Virus record (IMG/VR): IMGVR_UViG_3300027826_000002
Location: 1-40,356 of that record
DNA length: 40,356 nt
Source of the DNA: a virus
Direction: 5' to 3' (one strand)
Below are positions 2,702 to 35,479 of this stretch, piece after piece (position 1 is the first letter of the stretch; each line of letters begins with the position of its first letter). The notes under the pieces were generated by a model. That model was not told where the DNA came from and ran no database searches. It worked only from the letters and a program-made list of their open reading frames with translations. A program made the translations under genes and the position numbers.

Positions 2702-4231
2702 ATGCACACAAACTTTAACCCTGATGTTATCTATTCAGGTAATCCGCAAGACATACAAGAACAAGAGATAAAGCGACTGCGTGAACTCCGCAAGATCAAA
2801 CTCCACAGACTACAAAACGAACCGCACCGTTACTTTATGCCTATAGGCAAGTTTTCAGAGTTTGCAGATAAAGCAATGTCTGGAAACTACAAAGTATCAT
2901 TGTTAGAAGCTGCGAACGGCATTGGTAAAACTGTTGGCACAATAAACATGTTTGCTAATCTCTTCTGGCCTGTTCACAATCAATACTTCCAACAACCATT
3001 AATGCTTGATTGGCCGTTTCCAAAACAAGGACGTATCATTTCATACGCTAATACCATCACTGAAACGATTATTCCTGCGATGAAGCAATGGTTTCCCAAA
3101 GGCAGATATAACATTAATAAATATGAAACGACAAAAGATGGTAAGCGATACGAAGCACATTGGGAAACTGACACTGGATGGACATTCAATCTTATGACCT
3201 ATGACCAGGATGTAAGAGAGTTTGAATCCGCTAATCTTGGTTTCTTCTGGAACGATGAACCGCCGAGTCCTGCTATCTTTAACGCAAACTACTCACGTTT
3301 ACGTATGGGCGGGATTGGCATACTGACCGAAACACCCCTCAAAGGCGCACAGTGGATTTATGATGAGTTTGTTGATAAACCAGATTCAGAGCTTTTGAAA
3401 GAGAAGCGCAGCGTTACCCATGCAGTTCTTGAAGACGCTTGTGAGGAGCATGGAGATCGAGGATTCTTGACACATGTACAGATTCTTGACCAGATCGCCG
3501 GATACAATGAGGATGAAGTTAGACAGCGTGTATTTGGTAAGCATCACCATTTGACAGGATTGGTATTTAAGAAATGGGATAAACGAGTACATGTTATTCC
3601 GCCATTTAATATAACTAACCGTGATTATGTTGTTGCTCAAGCTCTTGATCCACATCCAAGAACACCCGATGCTGTATTGTGGGTAGCATTTGACCGTGAA
3701 GGTAAGGCGTGGAAATGTAATGAATTGTGGGGAGAATTTGAAACGGCAGAACTAGCCGAGCGTATTAAATCAATTGATAAGAACTATCGAATAGTAAAAC
3801 GACTCATTGATCCCTCAGCATATATCATTGATAAGCATACTGGTTATCAGTTAGCAGCAGATTTATCTACAAATTATCATCTTGATTACGAACCTGGAAG
3901 TAAAGAAAGACAAAATGCTATTGAAGCAATACGAAGATATATTGACTTTCAAATGGTTGGTGATGAGATAACTGTTCCTCCGATGCTCCGATCATTTGAT
4001 ACATGTGAGAGAGCGAATTGGGAAATAGGACGCTGGCAGTGGCAAGATTGGCGTGGAATATCAGCTCAATTTAAAAATCCAAAAGAGAAACCAATTGATA
4101 AAGATGATCATATGATTGAAAACTTAGGCCGTATATTATTAGCTAATATACGATTTGAAGAAGTAGTTATTGAAAGAACTGTTCCATCATGGGCTATCAA
4201 GAAAAAAGATAGTCTTGACCCATACGCTTAA
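2702..4231 (+). CDS. terL: Terminase large subunit
   Basis: The product is 509 residues, the usual length for TerL. The ATPase part has a Walker A-like LEAANGIGKT (about residues 63-72) and a Walker B-like LGFFWNDEPP (about 178-187) with the catalytic acid pair D-E. A C-terminal RNase H-type nuclease domain is suggested by ALDPHPRTPDAV (about 315), an LIDPSAY near 366 and KDDHMIENLGR near 470, the spaced acidic residues that bind metal. The protein pumps and cuts DNA into the prohead through the portal at 4659. ATG 2702 is used; another ATG five bases upstream is out of frame. The gene starts seven bases after TerS. Confidence 0.92.
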   Translation: MHTNFNPDVIYSGNPQDIQEQEIKRLRELRKIKLHRLQNEPHRYFMPIGKFSEFADKAMSGNYKVSLLEAANGIGKTVGTINMFANLFWPVHNQYFQQPLMLDWPFPKQGRIISYANTITETIIPAMKQWFPKGRYNINKYETTKDGKRYEAHWETDTGWTFNLMTYDQDVREFESANLGFFWNDEPPSPAIFNANYSRLRMGGIGILTETPLKGAQWIYDEFVDKPDSELLKEKRSVTHAVLEDACEEHGDRGFLTHVQILDQIAGYNEDEVRQRVFGKHHHLTGLVFKKWDKRVHVIPPFNITNRDYVVAQALDPHPRTPDAVLWVAFDREGKAWKCNELWGEFETAELAERIKSIDKNYRIVKRLIDPSAYIIDKHTGYQLAADLSTNYHLDYEPGSKERQNAIEAIRRYIDFQMVGDEITVPPMLRSFDTCERANWEIGRWQWQDWRGISAQFKNPKEKPIDKDDHMIENLGRILLANIRFEEVVIERTVPSWAIKKKDSLDPYA

Positions 4232-4249
4232 AACAATTAGAATACCGCT
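4215..4249 (+). promoter_or_regulatory. Leaderless promoter for 4250
   Basis: TTGACC (4215-4220), 17 bases, TAGAAT (4238-4243), then accgct and ATG 4250. The -35 box lies inside the last codons of terL. Confidence 0.8.
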
Positions 4250-4492
4250 ATGGCAGAGCAACAGCTAATCCCCATACATTTGACTCTCCGTGAGATAGCA
4301 TTAATCTCAAAACTACGAACGATTCCATTTGGTAAGATTGAAGTACACAAAGAAAATGGCGTTATTGAACGTGTCATTATAAACAAAAGCGAAGCAATAA
4401 CTGACAGGGATGGAATAACTGAAATTCAACGAGAAAATAGGGATATTGCAATTATTGAAAAAACTGTTAACATAGAGGCATATGTCAAGTAA
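4250..4492 (+). CDS. DUF2292-like small protein
   Basis: The product is 80 residues. The central segment LRTIPFGKIEVHKENGVIERVIINKSEAI has the pattern of the short DUF2292 (YezD-like) domain, in which an aromatic-G-x-I-x-V-x-x-x-x-G-x-I-x-x-V/I motif precedes a K-x-E. Function in that family is unknown; it occurs in Gram-positive bacteria and phages. The gene has its own near-consensus promoter with the ATG six bases after -10, and overlaps the next gene by 11 bases. Its site between TerL and portal suggests a late expressed accessory protein. Confidence 0.65.
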   Translation: MAEQQLIPIHLTLREIALISKLRTIPFGKIEVHKENGVIERVIINKSEAITDRDGITEIQRENRDIAIIEKTVNIEAYVK

Positions 4493-7680: not shown

Positions 7681-7884
7681 ATGCAACCGATTATATATAA
7701 TAAAGATAATAAAACATACTTCCATCCTCATAGACACGGAAATATAAATCAAACAAAAGATATTGAGATGAAAACATATAAAATATTTCTTACAGAAGTG
7801 AGATATGGGAAAAAAGTAAAAATTGTTGATAGCGAAGGATTTTATTGCCCTAGATGTTTCAGGGTGATACATAAAACTAATTAA
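7681..7884 (+). CDS. Small CxxC/His-containing protein
   Basis: The product is 67 residues from ATG 7681, two bases after the scaffold stop. It has an early HPHRHGN cluster and a C-terminal YCPRCFRVIHK that looks like half of a zinc ribbon. An inner ATG at 7768 would give 38 residues that keep the CxxC. Both are plausible; unknown function. Confidence 0.5.
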   Translation: MQPIIYNKDNKTYFHPHRHGNINQTKDIEMKTYKIFLTEVRYGKKVKIVDSEGFYCPRCFRVIHKTN

Positions 7885-7893
7885 TTTTGCCTA

Positions 7894-7986
7894 TTGACAA
7901 CTGGTTTTTAACCGTCTATATTGAAATCAATAACGTAATCAACAAACGATGCGTCTAACAAGAAATCTTGTTCAGACGCTTTTTTT
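7894..7986 (+). promoter_or_regulatory. Capsid promoter with hairpin-T7 leader abutting ATG
   Basis: TTGACA (7894-7899), 17 bases, TATATT (7917-7922) places the start near 7929. The leader then carries a 12-pair stem (GCGTCT-AACAAG 7951-7962 with CTTGTT-c-AGACGC 7967-7979, loop AAAT, one bulged C), and T 7980-7986 immediately followed by ATG 7987. It has the form of an intrinsic terminator, yet it sits between the capsid promoter and capsid start codon and leaves no Shine-Dalgarno sequence. It could be an mRNA 5' stabiliser, a U-rich ribosome entry, or an attenuator; inference. Confidence 0.8.
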
Positions 7987-8952
7987 ATGGAAACAGGAAC
8001 AAATCAAGTCACATACGCAGTAAATAACTTTTACGATAGATTGCTTCTTGAAAGAGCAGTCCCAACATTCATCCAAAACCGCTTCGCAGACGTTCGAGAC
8101 ATACCACAAGGAAATACTAATATTATCAAATTCCGACGATATACTAATTTGACAGCAGCAACGACACCACTTGTCCAGGGCGTTACTCCTGCTGGCTCTC
8201 AATTGTCTATTACCGATTTGACAGCAACCGTTCAGCAATATGGTGATTATGTCACATTGACTGATTTCTTAGAAATGACAACTCTTGATCCTGTTTTGAA
8301 TGAAACAGCAAATCTGCAAGGTGATCAAGTTGGTGATACGCTCGATCAATTAACACGAGATGTTATTACCGCAGGTACAAATGTATTCTATGCATCAACA
8401 GCAACAGCACGAAATCAAGTAACTGCTGCAATGAAGTTTACAATTACTGAAGCAAAGAATGTGGTAAAAATCCTCAAAGAGAATAAAGCAAAGAGAATCA
8501 CTGAAATGGTCGATCCTTCAACTGGTATTGCAACTCAAGGAATTATGCCAGCATTTATCGCTTTTGTTCACCCAGATACTACACGAGACTTGAAAGATGA
8601 TACGAGTTTTAAGCAAATCAGTAGTTATTCACGACCAGAACAAATAATGCCTGATGAGGTTGGAAGTATTGATGAAATCCGATGCATTGAATCAACTAAT
8701 TGCAAAATATTTACTGGAGCAGGTGCATCAAGTATCAATGTTTATGCAACAATGATTATTGCAAAACATGCATATGCAATTACAAGAATTTCAGGTGAAG
8801 CACTTCACATGATTATTAAACCTCTTGGAAGTGCAGGAACAGCAGATGCATTAGATCAACGCGCAACAATGGGATGGAAAGCAACTCACGTAGCAGTACG
8901 ACTCAATGAATCATGGATGGTTCGTCTTGAGCATGGAACAAGTAGTTCATAA
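7987..8952 (+). CDS. Major capsid protein, N4-gp56 type
   Basis: The product is 321 residues. It opens with NQVTYAVNNFYDRLLLERAVPTFIQNRFADVRDIPQGNTNIIKFRR in pieces characteristic of the N4-gp56 capsid family: F-Y-D-R-x-L-L-x-R-A, then I-P-x-G-x-(T/S)-x-x-I-x-(F/W)-x-R-Y, TPLVQGVTP and LTDFLEM-x-x-x-DP. The C-terminal part (MGWKATHVAVRLNESWMVRLEHG) matches the family's ending. It is an HK97-fold shell protein. No prohead-protease-type delta domain is visible. It has a dedicated strong promoter and the unusual hairpin-T7 leader, consistent with the highest late demand. Confidence 0.92.
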   Translation: METGTNQVTYAVNNFYDRLLLERAVPTFIQNRFADVRDIPQGNTNIIKFRRYTNLTAATTPLVQGVTPAGSQLSITDLTATVQQYGDYVTLTDFLEMTTLDPVLNETANLQGDQVGDTLDQLTRDVITAGTNVFYASTATARNQVTAAMKFTITEAKNVVKILKENKAKRITEMVDPSTGIATQGIMPAFIAFVHPDTTRDLKDDTSFKQISSYSRPEQIMPDEVGSIDEIRCIESTNCKIFTGAGASSINVYATMIIAKHAYAITRISGEALHMIIKPLGSAGTADALDQRATMGWKATHVAVRLNESWMVRLEHGTSSS

Positions 8953-8957
8953 AACAT

Positions 8958-9281
8958 ATGGCAACAACAATAAAAGCAACACAATATAATGGCGTACAAG
9001 GTGGATGGATTGAACGGGGAACTGTTACATTGACTCCAGCAGGTACAGCAACGATTACTGCTAACGCAGAAATTGAATGTACTACTGATACAAATATTTC
9101 TGGAAATACAGGAGATCAAATCTTTGTTAATCCAATAAACTTAACAACTGGTTTAGTTCCAAAAGGCGCACGATTTACCGCAAATGGAACGGTAAAAGTA
9201 AAGATTGCGAATGTAACAGGTTCTAATATTACCGATTCAACAGCAACTACTTACGACTACATCCTTATTCATTACTCCTAA
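8958..9281 (+). CDS. Small beta-rich virion protein (decoration-like)
   Basis: The product is 107 residues, rich in T, N, G and V with alternating polar/hydrophobic residues (VTLTPAGTATITANAEIEC, NGTVKVKIANVTGSNI). It lies five bases after the capsid stop. Position and all-beta composition suit a capsid decoration or head-fibre protein, but no signature settles it. Confidence 0.62.
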   Translation: MATTIKATQYNGVQGGWIERGTVTLTPAGTATITANAEIECTTDTNISGNTGDQIFVNPINLTTGLVPKGARFTANGTVKVKIANVTGSNITDSTATTYDYILIHYS

Positions 9282-9289
9282 AATTGTTG

Positions 9290-9324
9290 TTGACTTTCTT
9301 CAAGTATTTTAGTACTATCACTTC
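9290..9324 (+). promoter_or_regulatory. Leaderless promoter for 9325
   Basis: TTGACT (9290-9295), 17 bases, TACTAT (9313-9318), cacttc, ATG 9325. Shares AGTATTTTAGTA and CAC with the 7056 promoter. Confidence 0.85.
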
Positions 9325-9813
9325 ATGGCAGATAAGATTACAGAAGAAAGCTTAGGGAAAGTAGAACAGCCAAAATCTCAAGAAACTGCAACAGAATCTT
9401 CTATCAGCGATCAAGAAGCAGAACAAATAGCTGAAAAATCAGTTACGATAGCAGCAGTAGATCCCAAATCATTAACAGCAGCAGAAATAGAGAATTTCTT
9501 TTCATGGAAGCGTAAAAAAACACAAGAAATGCTTGAAAGTGAGCCAAAGGTTCGCATTTTTATTCCATTCAATGTCGGAGAAGATAAAAATAATAAGGCA
9601 AATCAATATGCTTTCTTTGGAATTAATGGATTTTATGTTCATGTAAGAAAAGGAATGTATGTTGATGTTCCTAAGACTATTGCGGATATGCATATGGAGT
9701 CTGTTGCAGAAACAGAAAGAGCATTAGATCACGAGAATTCAATTTCAAATATCGGAATGAAGATTGATCCAACAACAGGACAGAGAAAAACCATTGACGC
9801 ATTTAGTCAATAG
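9325..9813 (+). CDS. Head-associated protein of unknown function
   Basis: The product is 162 residues. The acidic N-terminal half (Q/E/S-rich, about 1-45) leads to a folded part with KVRIFIPFNVGE, AFFGINGFYVHVRKGMYVDVPKTIADM and an alpha tail. The G-x-x-x-x-V-x-x-G-x-x-V-x-V-P pattern is common in phage proteins encoded just after capsid. It may be a head-completion or minor capsid protein. Transcription from its own leaderless promoter fixes the start. Confidence 0.62.
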   Translation: MADKITEESLGKVEQPKSQETATESSISDQEAEQIAEKSVTIAAVDPKSLTAAEIENFFSWKRKKTQEMLESEPKVRIFIPFNVGEDKNNKANQYAFFGINGFYVHVRKGMYVDVPKTIADMHMESVAETERALDHENSISNIGMKIDPTTGQRKTIDAFSQ

Positions 9814-9828
9814 GAATACAATAACCGC
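9794..9828 (+). promoter_or_regulatory. Leaderless promoter for 9829
   Basis: TTGACG (9794-9799), 17 bases, TACAAT (9817-9822), aaccgc, ATG 9829. The -35 is inside the final codons of the preceding gene. Confidence 0.8.
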
Positions 9829-10650
9829 ATGACACCAGCCAATTTCGCCTCATATGTTCGATTAATGACTAAGACGAACTCTACGACCCTATCTGATACA
9901 AATTTAAAATTAATCATGAATATCGTAAAAGATGAGATATCAGGAATCATGGTTGATAAACTTGATGAGGAATATTTTGGAGTACCACAGACCACAGACT
10001 TGGTAAATAGCCAACGTGAATATCCGCTTGCAGTAGATATACCAGGAAAATTAAAGAAAGTAGAAGCAGTATTAGACCCAACATATTTAGACAGCAATGG
10101 AAATGTTGTTTGGGTAGATTTAAAGAAATTTGATCTTACTCAATACTCACAATTATCTACTAATCTTGTTGTCTCAGGAGATATTACTGATGGAGATTTT
10201 GGCATTCAGCCTACAACAGATGAAGATACAATACAATCAATATTTGGAAATAGACAAGGACAAGCAGCATATATGATATTTAGAAATTCTATTTGGATAT
10301 TTTCGGGTAAATTAACAGGGTTTACCGCAGGGAATAACTATCTTAAGATTTGGTCGTATGAATGGCCGAGCGATATAACAGATTTGACTAGTACAACACC
10401 ACTTGAAACTGATCCGACAACAACAAGCGCAGGTATACCAAGACAATTACATAGAGCATGGGCTGATAAAGTGAGTCTTCTATGGAAGCAAACATCTGAT
10501 AAAGAATATCAACCGAATGATTATGAAAATGAACTCGATACTATTATTGAAGATAGAATTATGTCGTTATCAAAAGTTGACAAAGATGAATCATACACCA
10601 TGACTCAGCCAATGGCGGGGCATGTCTATCACGACGGTTACGATTTATGA
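9829..10650 (+). CDS. Head-tail connector/adaptor-like protein
   Basis: The product is 273 residues. The N-terminus (NFASYVRLMTKTNSTTLSDTNLKLIMNIVKDEISGIM) is the helical bundle type seen in phage head-tail adaptors: a short helix, T-N/S-T-T-x-x-x-D, then a long helix. A YPLAVDIPGKLKKVEAVL segment and LKIWSYEWPSDITDL follow, ending in an acidic helix (ELDTIIEDRIMSL). The position after the head genes fits a ring below the portal. The assignment rests on layout and order, not a firm motif. Its end overlaps the next start (ATGA). Confidence 0.6.
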   Translation: MTPANFASYVRLMTKTNSTTLSDTNLKLIMNIVKDEISGIMVDKLDEEYFGVPQTTDLVNSQREYPLAVDIPGKLKKVEAVLDPTYLDSNGNVVWVDLKKFDLTQYSQLSTNLVVSGDITDGDFGIQPTTDEDTIQSIFGNRQGQAAYMIFRNSIWIFSGKLTGFTAGNNYLKIWSYEWPSDITDLTSTTPLETDPTTTSAGIPRQLHRAWADKVSLLWKQTSDKEYQPNDYENELDTIIEDRIMSLSKVDKDESYTMTQPMAGHVYHDGYDL

Positions 10651-11738
10651 AGTTTATCTTTATTTCACCTATCCACCTTGAGAAATGGGATTATCGTAAC
10701 CCTCTCGAAGTAGGAATTGGAGGCTCAGAAACCGCACATGTTGAAGTAGCAATACGACTTGCAAAACGTGGACATACGGTTATTTCTTATTCTCCTAAGC
10801 CAAAGGATGCACCAATTCATTATAAGGGTATTGAATGGCGTAACCTCAAAGAAGCAGATTATTCTCAAGATGGAATCTGGGTAGTTGGGCGAGCACCCTT
10901 TATTGCAAATAGATTTACAACAAAGCATACTAATAAAAAGTTATGGCTTGTAATGCAGGATGTTGTATATACACGAGCAACAAAACAGCAGATACAGAAA
11001 TTTGATTTACTCCTTCCACTTTGCCCTTCACATGTTAATCTCACGACCTCGCTCTATCCTTATATGAAAGAGAAGATTGTTCTCTCTTCGAATGGAATCC
11101 GATCAGACATAATCAAGCAGATAGAAAAGAAGGGTATTAAACGTAATCCCTACAAGCTCATTTTTGCATCCTCACCAGATCGAGGGTTATTAGCTTTATT
11201 GAAGATTTTTAAGACCGCCAGAAGGATGATTCCAGAGCTAGAACTTCATGTGTTCTATGGATTCAACAATATAGATAAAATGACTGATGCTGATGTTCCT
11301 ATTGGATCCGAACAAGTCACAAAACGACAAATTTTAGAAGAAATGGATCAGCCAGGAGTGTTCTATAGAGGACGTATTGGGCAGAGGCAGTTATATGAGG
11401 AGTGGTTATCTTCTGGTGTTTGGTGTCATCCATCGGCTGTATTTGCAGAGACTTCCTGCATTACCTCAATGGATGCTCAGGCATGTGGAGCAATCCCGAT
11501 CACGGCTCCTCTCTGGGCGATAGCCGATAATGTTCGGTATGGATATTTTGTCGATGGATACCCACTCACTGATAGTATTGCACGACAGCAATACGTTGAC
11601 TACCTCATTGATCTTTTGCAGAAGCGAGATAAAGATGAGGTTGAATCTATGCGGAAGGAGATGATGAGCTATGCCAGAAAAAGATTTGACTGGGAAAGGA
11701 TTGTTGACCAGTTCGAGCAGTTATCAGCAAAATCTTAA
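10647..11738 (+). CDS. GT4-type glycosyltransferase
   Basis: The product is 363 residues with a GT-B layout. Near the N-terminus VGIGGSETAHVEVAIRLAKRGHTV (from about residue 22) is the glycine-rich acceptor-side loop and helix of family 4. Near the C-terminus SAVFAETSCITSMDAQACGAIPI (about 265-290) is the E-x7-E-like nucleotide-sugar motif (ETSCITSMDAQA). It transfers a sugar from a nucleotide donor; the acceptor may be a virion protein or host envelope glycan. It starts by overlapping the connector gene and overlaps the next glycosyltransferase by 68 bases, so the two are co-translated. Confidence 0.87.
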   Translation: MKFIFISPIHLEKWDYRNPLEVGIGGSETAHVEVAIRLAKRGHTVISYSPKPKDAPIHYKGIEWRNLKEADYSQDGIWVVGRAPFIANRFTTKHTNKKLWLVMQDVVYTRATKQQIQKFDLLLPLCPSHVNLTTSLYPYMKEKIVLSSNGIRSDIIKQIEKKGIKRNPYKLIFASSPDRGLLALLKIFKTARRMIPELELHVFYGFNNIDKMTDADVPIGSEQVTKRQILEEMDQPGVFYRGRIGQRQLYEEWLSSGVWCHPSAVFAETSCITSMDAQACGAIPITAPLWAIADNVRYGYFVDGYPLTDSIARQQYVDYLIDLLQKRDKDEVESMRKEMMSYARKRFDWERIVDQFEQLSAKS

Positions 11739-12456
11739 AGGAAAACAGGTTTCGGGAACTATCTGTTATATGGGTGGTTGGCCGTTTGTCTATGAATTAT
11801 TTTCTTATTCCTGGGGAAAGATGATTCAATACACGACCACTCACCACCAGGGATTTATTAACTATGATACCATTCGTTCATCTTCTCATGCCTATGCACG
11901 AAATATAGCTGCTCAAAACATGAAAGGTGATTGGATATTAATGCTTGATACAGATATTCAATTTGATCCTGATATAGCCGTTAGAATGATTGAAACAATG
12001 GAGAAATATGAACTACATGTATTAACAGGTTTGTATTTGTATAAGAAAGATCCTCACTACCCAGTATTATATAGCTATAATCAGCGAAGGAAAAAATATC
12101 AAATCATTTCTTCGTGGAACTTGGAAGGAAATGAAGTATTTGAAATTGCAGCAGCAGGAGCAGGATGTTTACTAGTAAAAAAATGGGTATTCCAATATAT
12201 CAAACAACAATTACATGAAGATGCATTTGATATACGAAGACCGTTTGACAATAAAAAAGAGAAACAGTTAGGGGAGGATTTATCATTTTTTGATAGGTGT
12301 CGGCAACTTGATATTCAAGTTTTTTGTTCCCCATCAATTACTGTTGATCATATATTTCCACATCCATTAATCTTAGGAAGAGATCATGACTCAACGTTAA
12401 AACGCAAATCAAAGCAGTTTGAAGTGGTTGGATTAAAAAAACATCTTGCTTTTTGA
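11671..12456 (+). CDS. GT-A fold glycosyltransferase (GT2-like)
   Basis: The product is 261 residues. After a polar extension of about 30 residues the catalytic part contains ARNIAAQNMKGDWILMLDTDIQFDPDI (about 85-110): the A-R-N, the G-D-x-x-x-x-x-D-x-D motif that binds metal and nucleotide sugar. Later GAGCLLVKKWVF and GEDLSFFDRCRQLDI hold the acceptor-loop and the E-D-x-x-F-x-x-R motif. The second in-frame starts are unclear: 11671 lies 68 bases within the preceding gene. With the GT4 it forms a two-gene glycosylation unit inside the structural operon. Confidence 0.83.
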   Translation: MPEKDLTGKGLLTSSSSYQQNLKGKQVSGTICYMGGWPFVYELFSYSWGKMIQYTTTHHQGFINYDTIRSSSHAYARNIAAQNMKGDWILMLDTDIQFDPDIAVRMIETMEKYELHVLTGLYLYKKDPHYPVLYSYNQRRKKYQIISSWNLEGNEVFEIAAAGAGCLLVKKWVFQYIKQQLHEDAFDIRRPFDNKKEKQLGEDLSFFDRCRQLDIQVFCSPSITVDHIFPHPLILGRDHDSTLKRKSKQFEVVGLKKHLAF

Positions 12457-12538
12457 TAAAGAAAGGTCTATAAATTAGGTTAGCACAAGCAACAAATGCT
12501 ATGCTCATTCGATAGACGGAATCGAATGAGCTTTTTTT
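12453..12538 (+). promoter_or_regulatory. Promoter with hairpin-T7 leader abutting ATG (second copy of the architecture)
   Basis: TTGATA (12453-12458), 17 bases, TAGGTT (12476-12481), likely start near 12488. GCTCATTCGAT (12503-12513) pairs perfectly with ATCGAATGAGC (12521-12531), then seven T (12532-12538) and ATG 12539. Sequence of the stem differs from that before the capsid gene, but stem length, T-run and zero distance to ATG are the same. Confidence 0.75.
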
Positions 12539-13756
12539 ATGTTAATCAATACAGGAAACATAATCGCAAATGCAGGAGTCGTATTACTTAATGTTCGTGA
12601 TATTTCTGCACTCACAATACAACTAACAGGTTTTGGTTCTGCAACAATTCAATTTGAATTTACCCCCGATGGAACAAATTGGTATGCTCTTAATTGTTAT
12701 CCCAATGGGAGTACAACTGCCGTCACATCAGCAACAGCAAATGGTTTATGGTTTGCTAATGTCGCTGGAGCAGTTGAAGTACGAGCAAGAGCATCTACCT
12801 ATTCAAGTGGAACAATTGCTGTTGTTTTAGCAGGTTCAGGGAATGGTGATCTTTCAATTCCAGCATCTGGAGGAGGGGGAACACAATATGTAGATGGAGC
12901 TTCAACACCGGCTCATCCAACGGGAACGATGCCAATTTTTGACAATGGTGGAACGATTTCGGAAGTATCAGCAATAACAGGATTACCAATCCAAGGCGGT
13001 CATAAAGAAGTTTCATTTACTACCACGACAGCACAAGCAGTTGCATCAACAGATGTAAGTCAATATCGCTATATAGCAGTCCAGTTTACTTCACAAGGAA
13101 CAGGAGTTAATAATACATTTCAACAATCAAATGATAATTCTACATGGACTTCTTTAGCCCTCCAAAGAATAGATAATACTGGAACTTCTACACCAACTAC
13201 CTCTACAAATGATAATTCAGGACTCATTTTTGCTGGCCCTTTAAGTGGAAGATATTTCAGAATTAATGTTACTGGAATAAGCGCAGGAACAACCGCAGGT
13301 GTTGTAGAACTTTATTCAGTTCCTCCACAGCCATTTACTGGTGCAATTTTGCTTCAATCTGGAAATAATGGAATAGGAACTGTAGGAGTTACTGCACAAT
13401 CGTCGGGTGGATATACGCCAGGAAAATTAATTTCAGCAAATACTACTAATGCAACATCAGTAAAAGCTTCTGCGGGAACACTCGGAGGATTATATTTAGA
13501 GGGAAATACTGCAACTGTCTATTATGTGAAACTCTATGATAAAGCATCAGCACCAACAGTAGGAACTGATACGCCTATTGCAGTATATATTGTTCCAGCT
13601 AATTCAACAAATGGTGCAGGAAATAATGTTGTATTACCAGCACAAGGAATGAATTTTGCAAGCGGAATCGCTTTTGCAATAACAGGAGGGGTTGGAGATT
13701 CAGATACAACTGCTTGCGCTGCAAACGCAGTTGTCGTGAATTATCTATATAAATAA
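12539..13756 (+). CDS. Beta-rich tail/fibre-like structural protein
   Basis: The product is 405 residues, rich in G, T, S, A, N and with no charged helices. Two half-similar modules appear: an early one with FGSATIQFEFTPDGTNWYALNCYPN and a second with YRYIAVQFTSQGTGVNNTF, each a beta-sandwich-like repeat with W-x-x-L. The C-terminus (LGGLYLEGNTATVYYVKLYDKASAPTVGTDTP in pieces, then VPANSTNG...) matches a beta domain frequent in phage tail or head-fibre proteins, with T-x-Y-x-K-L-Y-x-K-A-x-A-P-T-x-G-T-D-T-P. High expression is suggested by the capsid-like leader. Confidence 0.7.
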   Translation: MLINTGNIIANAGVVLLNVRDISALTIQLTGFGSATIQFEFTPDGTNWYALNCYPNGSTTAVTSATANGLWFANVAGAVEVRARASTYSSGTIAVVLAGSGNGDLSIPASGGGGTQYVDGASTPAHPTGTMPIFDNGGTISEVSAITGLPIQGGHKEVSFTTTTAQAVASTDVSQYRYIAVQFTSQGTGVNNTFQQSNDNSTWTSLALQRIDNTGTSTPTTSTNDNSGLIFAGPLSGRYFRINVTGISAGTTAGVVELYSVPPQPFTGAILLQSGNNGIGTVGVTAQSSGGYTPGKLISANTTNATSVKASAGTLGGLYLEGNTATVYYVKLYDKASAPTVGTDTPIAVYIVPANSTNGAGNNVVLPAQGMNFASGIAFAITGGVGDSDTTACAANAVVVNYLYK

Positions 13757-28992: not shown

Positions 28993-29076
28993 TTTTTTAT
29001 GATGAGAAGCGCATAGTTGAGTAATACCAAGCGGCGGGAACATGGTCTATTTTTTTGCCTAAGACGTTTTAGACAA

Positions 29077-29106
29077 CCCTCTATTCCCGCCGGAATGGAG
29101 GGTTTT
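29077..29106 (+). promoter_or_regulatory. Hairpin-T4 leader sequestering the RBS of the replication gene
   Basis: CCCTCTATTCC (29077-29087) pairs with GGAATGGAGGG (29092-29102) over eleven positions (one T-G), loop CGCC. The GGAGGG in the 3' arm is a good Shine-Dalgarno sequence and lies four T residues before ATG 29107, so folding would hide it. Confidence 0.7.
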
Positions 29107-29901
29107 ATGGAAAGAGTTGATGGTTCGATCACTACCGCTACTGATGAATACCAGACTGAAGACATGCTGTTAACCTACAGCGAGGAAGAGAAGCAGGACA
29201 ATGAAATAAATGCTTCTAATGCTAGTCTTTTATTTTCTCCTAAGTTTATTCCTGTATATCCTGATCTATTAGACAGGCTTACTTTCGCAGAAGCATTAAT
29301 CTTCGGCTTTATTGACTTCTATAAATCCTCTTCATCTGCAAGGTTCTATTTTACCAACGAGCAAATTGCAAGCATTGTCAAATGCAATCCTGATACCGTG
29401 AGCAGGGCAATTACAAGACTCCAAGAACTTGGACTCATTAAAACATCTAAGAGAATGCGTGGTGGAGGAGGTTTGATCAGATTCGTAACTGATATTTTCT
29501 ATGATCGCAAACCGACAAATTATCAATTTGGTAACCGGCAAATCCCACAAACAAATAATAATAAGATAAATAATAATAAGATAAAAGAGAATAAGAGAGA
29601 AGCATCTCTCGAATATTTAGAAAATATCTCACTAGAAGAAATCACTAAACTATCAGATACATATAAAGCTACCAAATCTCAGGTACGGGAGAAAGCTGAG
29701 GCTCTGGCTAACTACTGTCGTGGACATGGAAAAACCTATCGGGATTATGGAGCTATGCTTAAAAATGCGCTCCTGCGTGATTTTGGTAAAAGGGATATTG
29801 TTCCGAAAATTGTTATAGATATCCCCAAGCCTGAGAAATTGATAAGCCCTGAGAAATACGCCGAGTTCTTAGAAAAGAAAAAGCAACTCTTTGGTAGATG
29901 A
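29107..29901 (+). CDS. Winged-helix replication-initiation-type protein
   Basis: ATG 29107 is chosen from the GGAGGG site; a longer TTG-started frame would run through the hairpin. The 264-residue product has LTFAEALIFGFIDFYKSS, YFTNEQIASIVKCNPDTVSRAITRLQELGLIKTSKRMRG (about 82-120), a classic DnaD/phage-O-like winged helix, then an N/K-rich linker (about 149-163), and a C-terminal helical part (VREKAEALANYCRGHGKTYRDYGAMLKNALLRDF in pieces) like phage replisome organisers. It would open the origin and load the helicase. The linker is encoded by a tandem AT-rich repeat, as when lambdoid O genes contain their origin. Confidence 0.72.
   Translation: MERVDGSITTATDEYQTEDMLLTYSEEEKQDNEINASNASLLFSPKFIPVYPDLLDRLTFAEALIFGFIDFYKSSSSARFYFTNEQIASIVKCNPDTVSRAITRLQELGLIKTSKRMRGGGGLIRFVTDIFYDRKPTNYQFGNRQIPQTNNNKINNNKIKENKREASLEYLENISLEEITKLSDTYKATKSQVREKAEALANYCRGHGKTYRDYGAMLKNALLRDFGKRDIVPKIVIDIPKPEKLISPEKYAEFLEKKKQLFGR
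29553..29582 (+). repeat. Two tandem 15-bp AT-rich repeats inside the replication gene
   Basis: AAATAATAATAAGAT occurs twice without a gap (29553-29567, 29568-29582), followed by a related AAAGAGAATAAGAG. The unit is in frame (5 codons). Such AT-rich repeats inside an O-like gene can be a duplex-unwinding element. Confidence 0.75.
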
Positions 29902-30205: not shown

Positions 30206-30994
30206 TTATACCTCTAATAAACTAGTTTTTCCACTATAGGGAGTGAACCAAATAGGATTGAAAAAAACGTCGGCAGTTGAAACTTTTGGAATATACGCGA
30301 ATCGAAACTGTTGTGCTACATGTTTCCTTGCATTATGAAACAGTTCATTTTGAACAACCTTTAATAGTAACCTTGCTCTCTCTTCTGAAATCGGAGTGAG
30401 AAAACAAAAGGTAAACTGTTCGATAGGCGTATCAAACCAATCATCCCATACCTTCATTAATTCACATAAACGACGAATCTTTGCTTCTAGTTGATTTGGT
30501 TCCTCTGTTCCATTATCCCACTCAAACCAGAGAGCTTTCCCTGATGCAAACTTCACTAACAGATCAGGAATAAGCGGCGCACCCTGCATAATCCTCTTTA
30601 AATGAAAATCATGGAGGAGGTGTTCAATGGGATGGTTGTTGCGAATGGCATAGCAACACACTGCAAGCCCACTGACTTGTAATGCATGGGGAAAGTGACT
30701 GGATGCGATAAACGTCTTCATATCCGAGGGATACGGCCAGCTCGTAAAATCATACCCCTCTGCATGGAGAACCTTACGCCCAGATGCGCCTAAATAGTAA
30801 ATAAACGGTTCAATAGGGTAGTCATGTACCTTTGCACGATCTAGGTATCCAAAGTCCTCTGTAAGCGATTTTAAGGCACCGAGAACGAACTTTTTTGACG
30901 TAGGGCTATAGATCCCAAGGTTGGCTACCATTTTCCCCGTCATAAACGGTATTTGTGTGAAAGCGGTAAGAATCTCCTGCTCTTTTTTATTCAT
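30206..30994 (-). CDS. Replication-relaxation family protein
   Basis: The product is 262 residues. The N-terminus (NKKEQEILTAFTQIPFMTGKMVANLGIYS, FVLGALKSLTEDFGYLDRA) is a winged helix; then YYLGASGRKVL, HALQVSGLAVCCYA, and LIPDLLVKFASGKALWFEWDNGTEEPNQLEAKIRRL (about 138-172) with D...E-x-D/E: a PD-(D/E)xK-like strand set. This order (HTH, Y-x-L-x-x-x-G, P-D, E-x-D-x-G-T-E) is the replication-relaxation (Replic_Relax) family of plasmids and ICEs, which is thought to control initiation or DNA relaxation. Same operon as the coupling ATPase. Confidence 0.8.
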   Translation of the reverse strand: MNKKEQEILTAFTQIPFMTGKMVANLGIYSPTSKKFVLGALKSLTEDFGYLDRAKVHDYPIEPFIYYLGASGRKVLHAEGYDFTSWPYPSDMKTFIASSHFPHALQVSGLAVCCYAIRNNHPIEHLLHDFHLKRIMQGAPLIPDLLVKFASGKALWFEWDNGTEEPNQLEAKIRRLCELMKVWDDWFDTPIEQFTFCFLTPISEERARLLLKVVQNELFHNARKHVAQQFRFAYIPKVSTADVFFNPIWFTPYSGKTSLLEV

Positions 30995-33733: not shown

Positions 33734-35479
33734 GTGACTGCTATGCTCGCCACTTCAACGCTGCCCATTGATCCGCCTAGCGGAGAATGGGAGTATCTCT
33801 TGCCTAAAACCATTCGTAGAAACGCCCTCTATCGTCGTGTTAGTGGTGACGACCAGGAGCGAGGCTCTAGCCTCTCCGATCAGTTTGATGCCTTTGTAAC
33901 TCGTGTAGGTCAAGATGGTGGCGTGTTCAAGGAAGAACATATTTTTACGGATGTTCGTTCAGGTGATGGCAAGTATTGGCGAGATCGAGAAGGAATCCAA
34001 GCCCTTCTTGCCGCAGCGAAACGACATGAACTAGATTTTGTATACGTGGCTGCTTTGGATAGGTTCGGTAGAGATTATGCTGTGCAAGAGTTTCTGATTC
34101 AGGAACTTAAGTACTATGGCGTAACCCTCATCTCCATGAAGAAAGACGAACAGACCGAAGGACGTAACGACCCTTCTTCAGTTCTAGCCAGAACCTTTTT
34201 TGGGATGATGGCACAGGAGGAATTAAAGCGTATAAAAGATAGAACTCATCTGGGGATTAGAGGGCGAGTTACCAAAAAAGGTGCGCTCCTGGCTGGACGA
34301 AGACCCCTGTACGGCTACCATTGGGCTGATAAAGAAATGGAATGGGATGGACAGCTCATCACCGTTCCCAAGGCATGTTATGTCATCTACGAGCCAGAAG
34401 CCAAGGTTGTACGCTACGTCTTTGATCTTGCCTTAAAGCGTACACCTATTCGGCGTATTGCAATCATGTTGACAGAGATGGGTGTACCCACCCCTGACGG
34501 TAAACAGTTGTGGCGTCCAGCTAGTTTACATAATCTCTTACGGCATCAAGGGTATACTGGACAAGCTGTGGCGTGGAAACACCATTATGAGTACGTACCT
34601 GGACAGGGTGTACGCAAAACTGTCAAGGATAAGAGCGAATGGGTGTCAGTTGAAGGCTGTATTCCACCCCTCATTGATCTGTCTACCTACGAAAAGATAC
34701 AGGAGATTCTTGTACGCAATAAGGAGACAGCACCCCGAAATAACAAACATCCCCTTGATGCACTCTGCCGTAGTGGAATTGCAATCTGTGGGTATTGCGG
34801 TCACAATCTCATCGCCTTTACCGACGCTCATAAGAAATCCCCATCCTACATTTGTGCCATTAAAATACGTGGGTATCATGAGTGCAGAGGCGTGAGGGCA
34901 ACGACGTTTGCTGTCGATGGGGCAGCATGGACGAAGGCGAAAGAGATCATTTGTCATCCAGAGCTTATTGAGGAGGAGCTTAAAAAGCGTCGTGTGGAAG
35001 ACCCTGTAAGTGGTTCGTTGCACGCTGCTGAAACCCTTATGAAAGACGTAACGGAGGCGATCATTAACTTGACCAAGGCGATGGAGCATACCACCGACCC
35101 AACCACCATCATGATTCTTACGCAGCGTCTTGAGGAGCTTGCCAAACAGAAAGCAAGCTATGAGAACCAGTACGATCAGGTCATGCGTTATCGTATCAAT
35201 TGGGAAGATGCTATGCGTGCTTTGGATGATTTCAAAGCCTGGTGTGATGAGGTACGCCCCCATCTGTGTTCTCCTGATTTCGAGCCGACGTATCAGGAGA
35301 AGCGCGAAGCATTGGAGATGATTGGCATTCGGGTAGCCGTGTTTGGGAAAGATCAGAAACAGCGTTACAGAGTAGACGTGGAGCCGTCTGAGATCATGAA
35401 TAAGTTCTCAATTGTGTCAAGAACCTCTTACACATGTGATCACAATCAACCTCTCCTAAGTTACTTTGTCGAGGGTTGA
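33734..35479 (+). CDS. Large serine recombinase (integrase)
   Basis: The frame starts with GTG at 33734 (581 residues) or ATG at 33743. The N-terminal catalytic domain has ALYRRVSGDDQERGSSLSDQ (about 32-51; the Ser after V is the nucleophile), VYVAALDRFGRDYAVQEFL and ARTFFGMMAQEELKRIKDRT. A recombinase domain (PLYGYHW..., IRRIAIMLTEMGVPTPDGKQLWRPASLHNLLRHQGYTGQ) follows, then the zinc ribbon ICGYCGHNL...CAIKIRGYHECRG, a coiled-coil (KAMEHTTDPTTIMILTQRLEELAKQ) and a C-terminal domain. It cuts and exchanges DNA at att sites. The neighbouring xis and repeats support an integration module. Confidence 0.9.
   Translation: MTAMLATSTLPIDPPSGEWEYLLPKTIRRNALYRRVSGDDQERGSSLSDQFDAFVTRVGQDGGVFKEEHIFTDVRSGDGKYWRDREGIQALLAAAKRHELDFVYVAALDRFGRDYAVQEFLIQELKYYGVTLISMKKDEQTEGRNDPSSVLARTFFGMMAQEELKRIKDRTHLGIRGRVTKKGALLAGRRPLYGYHWADKEMEWDGQLITVPKACYVIYEPEAKVVRYVFDLALKRTPIRRIAIMLTEMGVPTPDGKQLWRPASLHNLLRHQGYTGQAVAWKHHYEYVPGQGVRKTVKDKSEWVSVEGCIPPLIDLSTYEKIQEILVRNKETAPRNNKHPLDALCRSGIAICGYCGHNLIAFTDAHKKSPSYICAIKIRGYHECRGVRATTFAVDGAAWTKAKEIICHPELIEEELKKRRVEDPVSGSLHAAETLMKDVTEAIINLTKAMEHTTDPTTIMILTQRLEELAKQKASYENQYDQVMRYRINWEDAMRALDDFKAWCDEVRPHLCSPDFEPTYQEKREALEMIGIRVAVFGKDQKQRYRVDVEPSEIMNKFSIVSRTSYTCDHNQPLLSYFVEG

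Follow-up and report, generated by a model that had tools for sequence, protein, structure and literature searches.

The viral stretch analysed here (IMG/VR record IMGVR_UViG_3300027826_000002, positions 1 to 40,356, hereafter the window, 40,356 nucleotides in length) carries on its + strand two copies of a leader element in which a hairpin followed by seven T residues runs directly into a start codon. Copy 1 precedes the major capsid protein gene (7987-8952; phrog_1357, E 9e-70), the N terminus of which, METGT, aligns with that of its relatives, and copy 2 precedes an open reading frame (ORF) of 405 amino acids (12539-13756), fibre-like by position and with no PHROG or Pfam match; these would be the first and second regulated genes, respectively. 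The hairpin of copy 1, termed P2, lies at 7951-7979 (GCGTCTAACAAGA-AA-TCTTGTT(C)AGACGC, free energy of folding (dG) -15.3), its T7 tract at 7980-7986 adjoining the capsid ATG at 7987; that of copy 2 lies at 12503-12531 (11-bp stem, 7-nt loop, dG -16.0), with T7 at 12532-12538 adjoining the ATG at 12539. A hairpin containing G+C with a U tract directly 3' of it is the architecture of an intrinsic (rho-independent) terminator. Upstream of copy 1 is a strong sigma-70 promoter (7894-7922, +, TTGACA-17-TATATT, 11/12 consensus) with a predicted RNA start at approximately 7929, and upstream of copy 2 a weak one (12446-12474, +, TTGCTT-17-TATAAA, 8/12); in both cases the -10 box ends 28 nt before P2. 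The first-pass annotation of this DNA had described both hairpins, the absence of a gap before the ATG and a promoter of 17-bp spacing 20-30 bases upstream, all of which was borne out. A stem with T6-7 and ATG at zero distance occurs twice on the + strand of the window, not at all on its - strand and in none of 40 mononucleotide shuffles.

What had been overlooked is a second hairpin upstream of each stem and overlapping it. In copy 1 this putative antiterminator spans 7933-7954 (+), comprising an outer helix, P0 (7933-7937/7950-7954), an inner helix, P1 (7939-7940/7948-7949), and an A-rich loop, AACAAAC (7941-7947); its minimum free energy fold, calculated on the leader cut before the terminator 3' arm, has a dG of -3.5. 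In copy 2 it spans 12482-12505 (+), with P0 at 12482-12485/12502-12505, P1 at 12488-12491/12497-12500, an internal loop CA/A and a terminal loop ACAAA (12492-12496), and the truncated leader folds into it with a dG of -6.1, in agreement with the architecture of the family. In both copies the 3' strand of the antiterminator overlaps the terminator stem. The same plan is found throughout the family leaders, in which P2 is immediately preceded by a short P1 whose A-rich loop is often AAAAA, and the segment 5' of P1 pairs with the P2 5' arm to form P0. When leaders were truncated before the P2 3' arm, about 35 of 37 folded individually into P0, P1 and loop, both window copies among them, and a leader's own P2 arm outperformed arms swapped between leaders (z -6.3; -5.8 with 31 distinct arms). 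P1 was 100% paired with both-side changes at 2/3 pairs over 29 rows of a MAFFT alignment anchored on the loop, and again 100% paired, with both-side changes at 3/3 pairs, in 51 distinct rows of an alignment fitted to the model. As P0 plus P1 and P2 use the same strand, antiterminator and terminator are mutually exclusive, and since P2 is the stronger structure (mean dG -13.9 for the terminator vs -5.7 kcal/mol for the antiterminator), termination should be the default. A pseudoknot between the A-rich loop and the U tract was also considered and set aside as unnecessary once P0 was known; with both loop and tract nearly invariant, covariation is uninformative there.

Relatives of the capsid gene were collected from viral contigs and genomes, and a further 43 capsid leaders from these phages have the hairpin, the conservation of which the first-pass annotation had made its own refutation test. 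In the four closest relatives (L002, L003, L004 and L006) promoter, leader and hairpin are all kept with differing stem sequences, and covariation among the relatives upholds the earlier view that structure is maintained while sequence is not. The hairpin-to-ATG gap is 9-21 nt in these four and 0-52 nt across the 45 listed leaders, being zero in the two window copies and 5-52 nt elsewhere. The hairpin is thus a conserved feature, the zero gap is local to the window genome, and the suggestion of a conserved zero distance to the start codon is ruled out. Spacing from the promoter is more regular; in most copies 26-33 nt separate the end of the -10 box from P2, so the antiterminator occupies the extreme 5' end of the transcript, and a promoter of at least 9/12 consensus accompanies 40 of 42 element copies vs 21% in shuffles. 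The confirmed relatives of the ORF at 12539 in viral contigs numbered none, so copy 2 is without an orthologous comparison. In other capsid relatives the element is absent, and the leader is plain or contains another hairpin. Seven such leaders (L037, L039, L041, L047, L050, L081 and L102) have a hairpin upstream of the capsid ATG with the loop UGUCGCA(A) and a stem of varying sequence, followed by a second hairpin with no T run, which would appear to be a structured RNA of another kind.

When 88 loci were searched with R1, a covariance model of the phage leaders, 58 matches were obtained, without exception on the strand of the late genes; some genomes have three to seven copies preceding other late genes, and one pair is in tandem. 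In L083 tandem attenuators (9872-9919 and 9922-9973) stand before a single capsid gene. A fold descriptor with no fixed sequence recovered both window copies among the 10 terminators of the window, plus one other match, and found 0/19 in shuffles, 2/92 in unrelated phage loci and 23/68 in relatives. No Rfam 15 family reached its gathering score at the element, whether in the window, the relatives, the prophages or the DUF2292 loci described below. A scan with R1 returned one match in 287 genomes of the Nealsonbacteria phylum and none in 149 Bacillota genomes; this near-absence indicates that the R1 form is essentially phage-borne.

Comparison of gene content between 13 element-bearing phages and six without the element yielded one family exclusive to the former, a protein of 65-115 amino acids encoded upstream of the portal gene and represented in the window by an 80-residue, DUF2292-like product (4250-4492, +). 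In a profile search, this family, which tracks the element across the relatives, was present in 18/18 element-bearing loci for which 5 kb or more of upstream sequence was available vs 2/28 others (Fisher p 7e-11, a value that overstates independence, since element-bearing phages group together on the capsid tree and the 18 cannot count as 18 independent events). Of the two element-free loci, L031 is a weak match, and in L102 the gene is followed directly by an element-like leader; L063, which lies within an element-free clade, has both the RNA and the protein. Pfam DUF2292 is matched by 3/19 family members (best 6.9e-7), and NCBIfam OscA, named a “sulfur starvation response protein”, is matched weakly by the phage family. 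An AlphaFold2 model of the window protein consists of a helix, a beta-hairpin and a second helix (predicted local distance difference test score 84), and fold searches with the small protein gave no significant match. The candidate regulator gene has its own promoter (4215-4243, +, TTGACC-17-TAGAAT) ending 6 nt before the ATG, a predicted leaderless mRNA and no attenuator of its own.

This start context recurs in the window. Six genes, beginning at 4250, 7091, 9325, 9829 and 35546 (+) and at 30994 (-), have a sigma-70 promoter (9-10/12) with a -10 box ending exactly 6 nt before the ATG, so their mRNAs should be leaderless; the same pattern was found at none of the offsets 10-39 from ATG and at most twice at any other offset. 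A Shine-Dalgarno-like motif precedes only 7/34 window genes.

The RNA and a related small protein also occur together in prophages. When the R1 core was used as a scanning pattern, prophages of isolate genomes were recovered as well, and Anoxybacillus and Caldibacillus phages were among the DNA matches; the prophage RNA, GCCUAA-CGG-AAAAA-CCG-A-GGGC plus terminator, lies downstream of a DUF3954/XtrA-family gene. So that the RNA should play no part in the selection, 25 loci from Bacillus-type prophages were retrieved with one XtrA-family protein alone, and R1, trained on other phages, found the RNA in 17 of them (E<=0.012), always on the strand of the XtrA-family gene and downstream of it, at distances from 4 nt to about 3 kb. 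The prophage P1 changes in step (CGG/CCG, CUG/CAG, GGG/CCC, CCG/CGG). Control loci not selected by the RNA pattern gave no R1 matches, and those selected by it matched weakly. In a profile comparison, the beta-hairpin was the region over which the DUF2292-like family aligned with XtrA (E 2.7e-5, probability 74%). A tblastn search of annotated phages with one XtrA found no match, and Bacillus subtilis, included as a control genome, was positive for both XtrA and DUF2292.

The third setting in which sequence links this RNA architecture to the protein is cellular. DUF2292 genes were found in 27 of the 149 Bacillota genomes, and adjoining them is the RNA GGCUGA-CCAG-ACAA-CUGG-A-GGCC plus terminator, at 100 times its frequency in background DNA and with the design of the phage element (P0, 2x1 loop, P1, A-rich loop). 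A model built from nine cellular leaders adjoining DUF2292 genes, R2, has an alignment with 98.6% of cells paired and both-side changes at 6/8 pairs; it detects the phage copies weakly. R2 matched 19 of the Bacillota genomes at E<=0.002, 17 of which are DUF2292-positive, and with the nine training genomes left out 8/10 R2-matched genomes were positive vs 18/140 (p 5.7e-7). In two genomes the R2 copies number 10 and 13 and are spread over many contigs, a distribution suggestive of action in trans. The genes that follow R2 copies encode sulfate adenylyltransferase, adenylylsulfate kinase, a sulfate transporter binding protein and an SsuA-like protein, as well as a cysteine-synthase-like enzyme, S-adenosylmethionine (SAM) synthetase and NifB-like proteins, together with some that have no clear link to sulfur; the sulfur genes fit the name OscA given by NCBIfam to a related family. 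At L307, two cellular attenuators (303-362 and 408-467) stand in tandem, 105 bp apart, near a DUF2292 gene.

On the strength of these sequence comparisons, each copy of the element is probably a transcription attenuator subject to protein-dependent antitermination by a DUF2292/XtrA-type protein. Transcription would begin some 20 nt before the terminator, with the weak P0 plus P1 hairpin, containing a purine-rich internal loop and an A-rich loop, the first structure to emerge. The P2 5' arm doubles as the 3' strand of P0, permitting one hairpin or the other but not both; by default P2 would form and, with the U tract, end transcription after about 58 nt. When present, the protein encoded at 4250-4492 is presumed to bind and hold the P0 plus P1 hairpin, P2 would then be blocked, and the polymerase would continue into the capsid and fibre genes. 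In this scheme the contact between protein and RNA, the direction and timing of control, the read-through and termination in vivo are what we infer from the structures and the linkage.

Several observations weigh against this interpretation. R1, trained on other phages, gives low scores to the window copies, 11.5 bits for copy 1 (E 2.3, first in rank within the window) and 9.3 bits for copy 2 (E 8, fourth in rank), so the membership of the window copies rests on position, architecture and folding; the window lineage has diverged in sequence from the R1 leaders. The antiterminator of copy 1 is weak at -3.5 kcal/mol, its P1 being 2 bp and a bulge, and the clustering on the capsid tree amounts to three changes, at least two of them forced. 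The window protein by itself has no significant Pfam match, and the models of both proteins are of middling confidence and show no likeness to solved structures. Finally, a fixed, factor-free termination with partial read-through would keep a terminator too.

An antiterminator/terminator switch could be real and yet answer to another effector, such as a host RNA-binding protein, another phage product or cotranscriptional timing, with the small protein linked by synteny alone. The regulator gene sits in a conserved late-gene neighbourhood, and linkage alone could yield co-occurrence within a clade; however, the same RNA is tied to a related small protein in unrelated, protein-selected prophages, the link between DUF2292 and the RNA holds at the level of the genome in cells with copies on many contigs per genome, and L063 has both partners amid an element-free clade, so we regard another effector as unlikely. 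Less likely still, and improbable in our judgement, is a constitutive 5' element with no switch at all, the hairpins stabilising the leader or setting the dose of virion protein by fixed partial termination. Strong hairpins near the 5' end are known RNA stabilisers in general, and both regulated genes are structural, but covariation keeps the pairing between the 5' segment and the P2 5' arm, for which a simple stabiliser has no need, and the conserved A-rich loop and the protein linkage also speak against it. The stability cap proposed in the first-pass annotation is likewise unsupported in view of the variable distance to the ATG and the Shine-Dalgarno-like motif after the T run in several relatives. 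These same two features count against its second proposal, a U-rich ribosome entry or standby site formed by the hairpin and U7; the leaderless genes of the window and its few Shine-Dalgarno motifs do imply that a U7-AUG start would be acceptable to the host, but with the zero gap confined to the window copies and a purine-rich motif past the T run in some relatives, a role in translation is very improbable. Its third proposal, a terminator doubling as leader, came closest, although a reading in which it stops transcripts of the preceding genes while the capsid promoter lies at another site is scarcely credible, since for all its terminator shape and its position in the intergenic gap after 7681-7884 a dedicated, conserved promoter lies upstream of the terminator in most copies and there is no room for another between U7 and ATG in the window.

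The protein-dependent attenuator favoured here most closely resembles the ribonucleic antiterminator (RAT) switches of the BglG/SacY/LicT/NagY type. In these the hairpin bound by SacY or NagY overlaps a terminator, protein binding permits transcription, and one regulator serves several operons (PMC12502629). In the present element, too, a small leader hairpin, proposed to be bound by protein, overlaps the terminator stem, whereas its RNA differs in being about 22-26 nt long, with a short P1, an A-rich loop and mostly a 2x1 internal loop, at the RNA 5' end. The linked proteins, of 48-115 amino acids, are small, unrelated to the RAT regulators and match DUF2292, DUF3954 or XtrA, not the BglG/SacY family, and in phages the element would control virion genes. 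BglG-type regulators are composed of RAT-binding and PRD domains, both of which the small proteins lack. Control of phage genes by antitermination is shared with lambda N/boxB and Q and with HK022 put, and boxB is itself a short hairpin with an A-rich pentaloop. Those systems, however, modify the polymerase to pass distant terminators. In the present element the overlapped terminator belongs to the individual gene, an arrangement that favours a switch acting locally and not processively.

Among the proteins, the nearest likenesses are to PBSX XtrA/DUF3954 (PF17356, PF13128) and to DUF2292 (PF10055)/OscA. Genes of the former have the same RNA downstream, although the window protein is DUF2292-like and similar to XtrA in the beta-hairpin only; in prophages the XtrA-domain gene sits just before a gene for a late sigma-like factor, as in a PBSX-like region in which an XtrA-domain ORF directly precedes an Xpf-like late sigma factor ORF (PMC8347963). 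As to the latter, the phage family matches DUF2292, a family uncharacterized in Pfam, and cellular DUF2292 genes accompany the same RNA architecture. Within the open-licence PMC literature, with subscription journals and preprints outside the search, no paper was found on the function of DUF2292, DUF3954 or XtrA, or on this RNA. The logic of protein-controlled attenuators is known; the RNA and the protein of this element differ from those of the RAT switches.

Elsewhere in the window, a third stem is followed by TTTT and ATG at 29075-29109 (CCCTCTATTCC-CGCC-GGAATGGAGGG-TTTT-ATG); the ORF after it has helix-turn-helix matches (Pfam HTH_Crp_2, 1e-6), and P0 and P1 were not recognised there. Between the capsid and fibre-like genes, at 10647-12456, are two genes with matches to glycosyltransferase families. 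A serine recombinase-type integrase (33734-35479; phrog_95, also DNA invertase phrog_125) suggests that the phage may be temperate.

Taking the three settings together, we lean towards the view that DUF2292, DUF3954 and XtrA form one widespread class of RNA-binding antiterminators with its own attenuator RNA, controlling sulfur-assimilation and cofactor operons in Bacillota and serving as a late-gene switch in several phage lineages. If so, a function would be provided for DUF2292, including the YezD- and OscA-type proteins, for PBSX XtrA and for DUF3954, and the Bacillota would gain an attenuator under protein control, with what appears to be a sulfur regulon, whilst in some phages the timing of virion production would be explained by an RNA switch.

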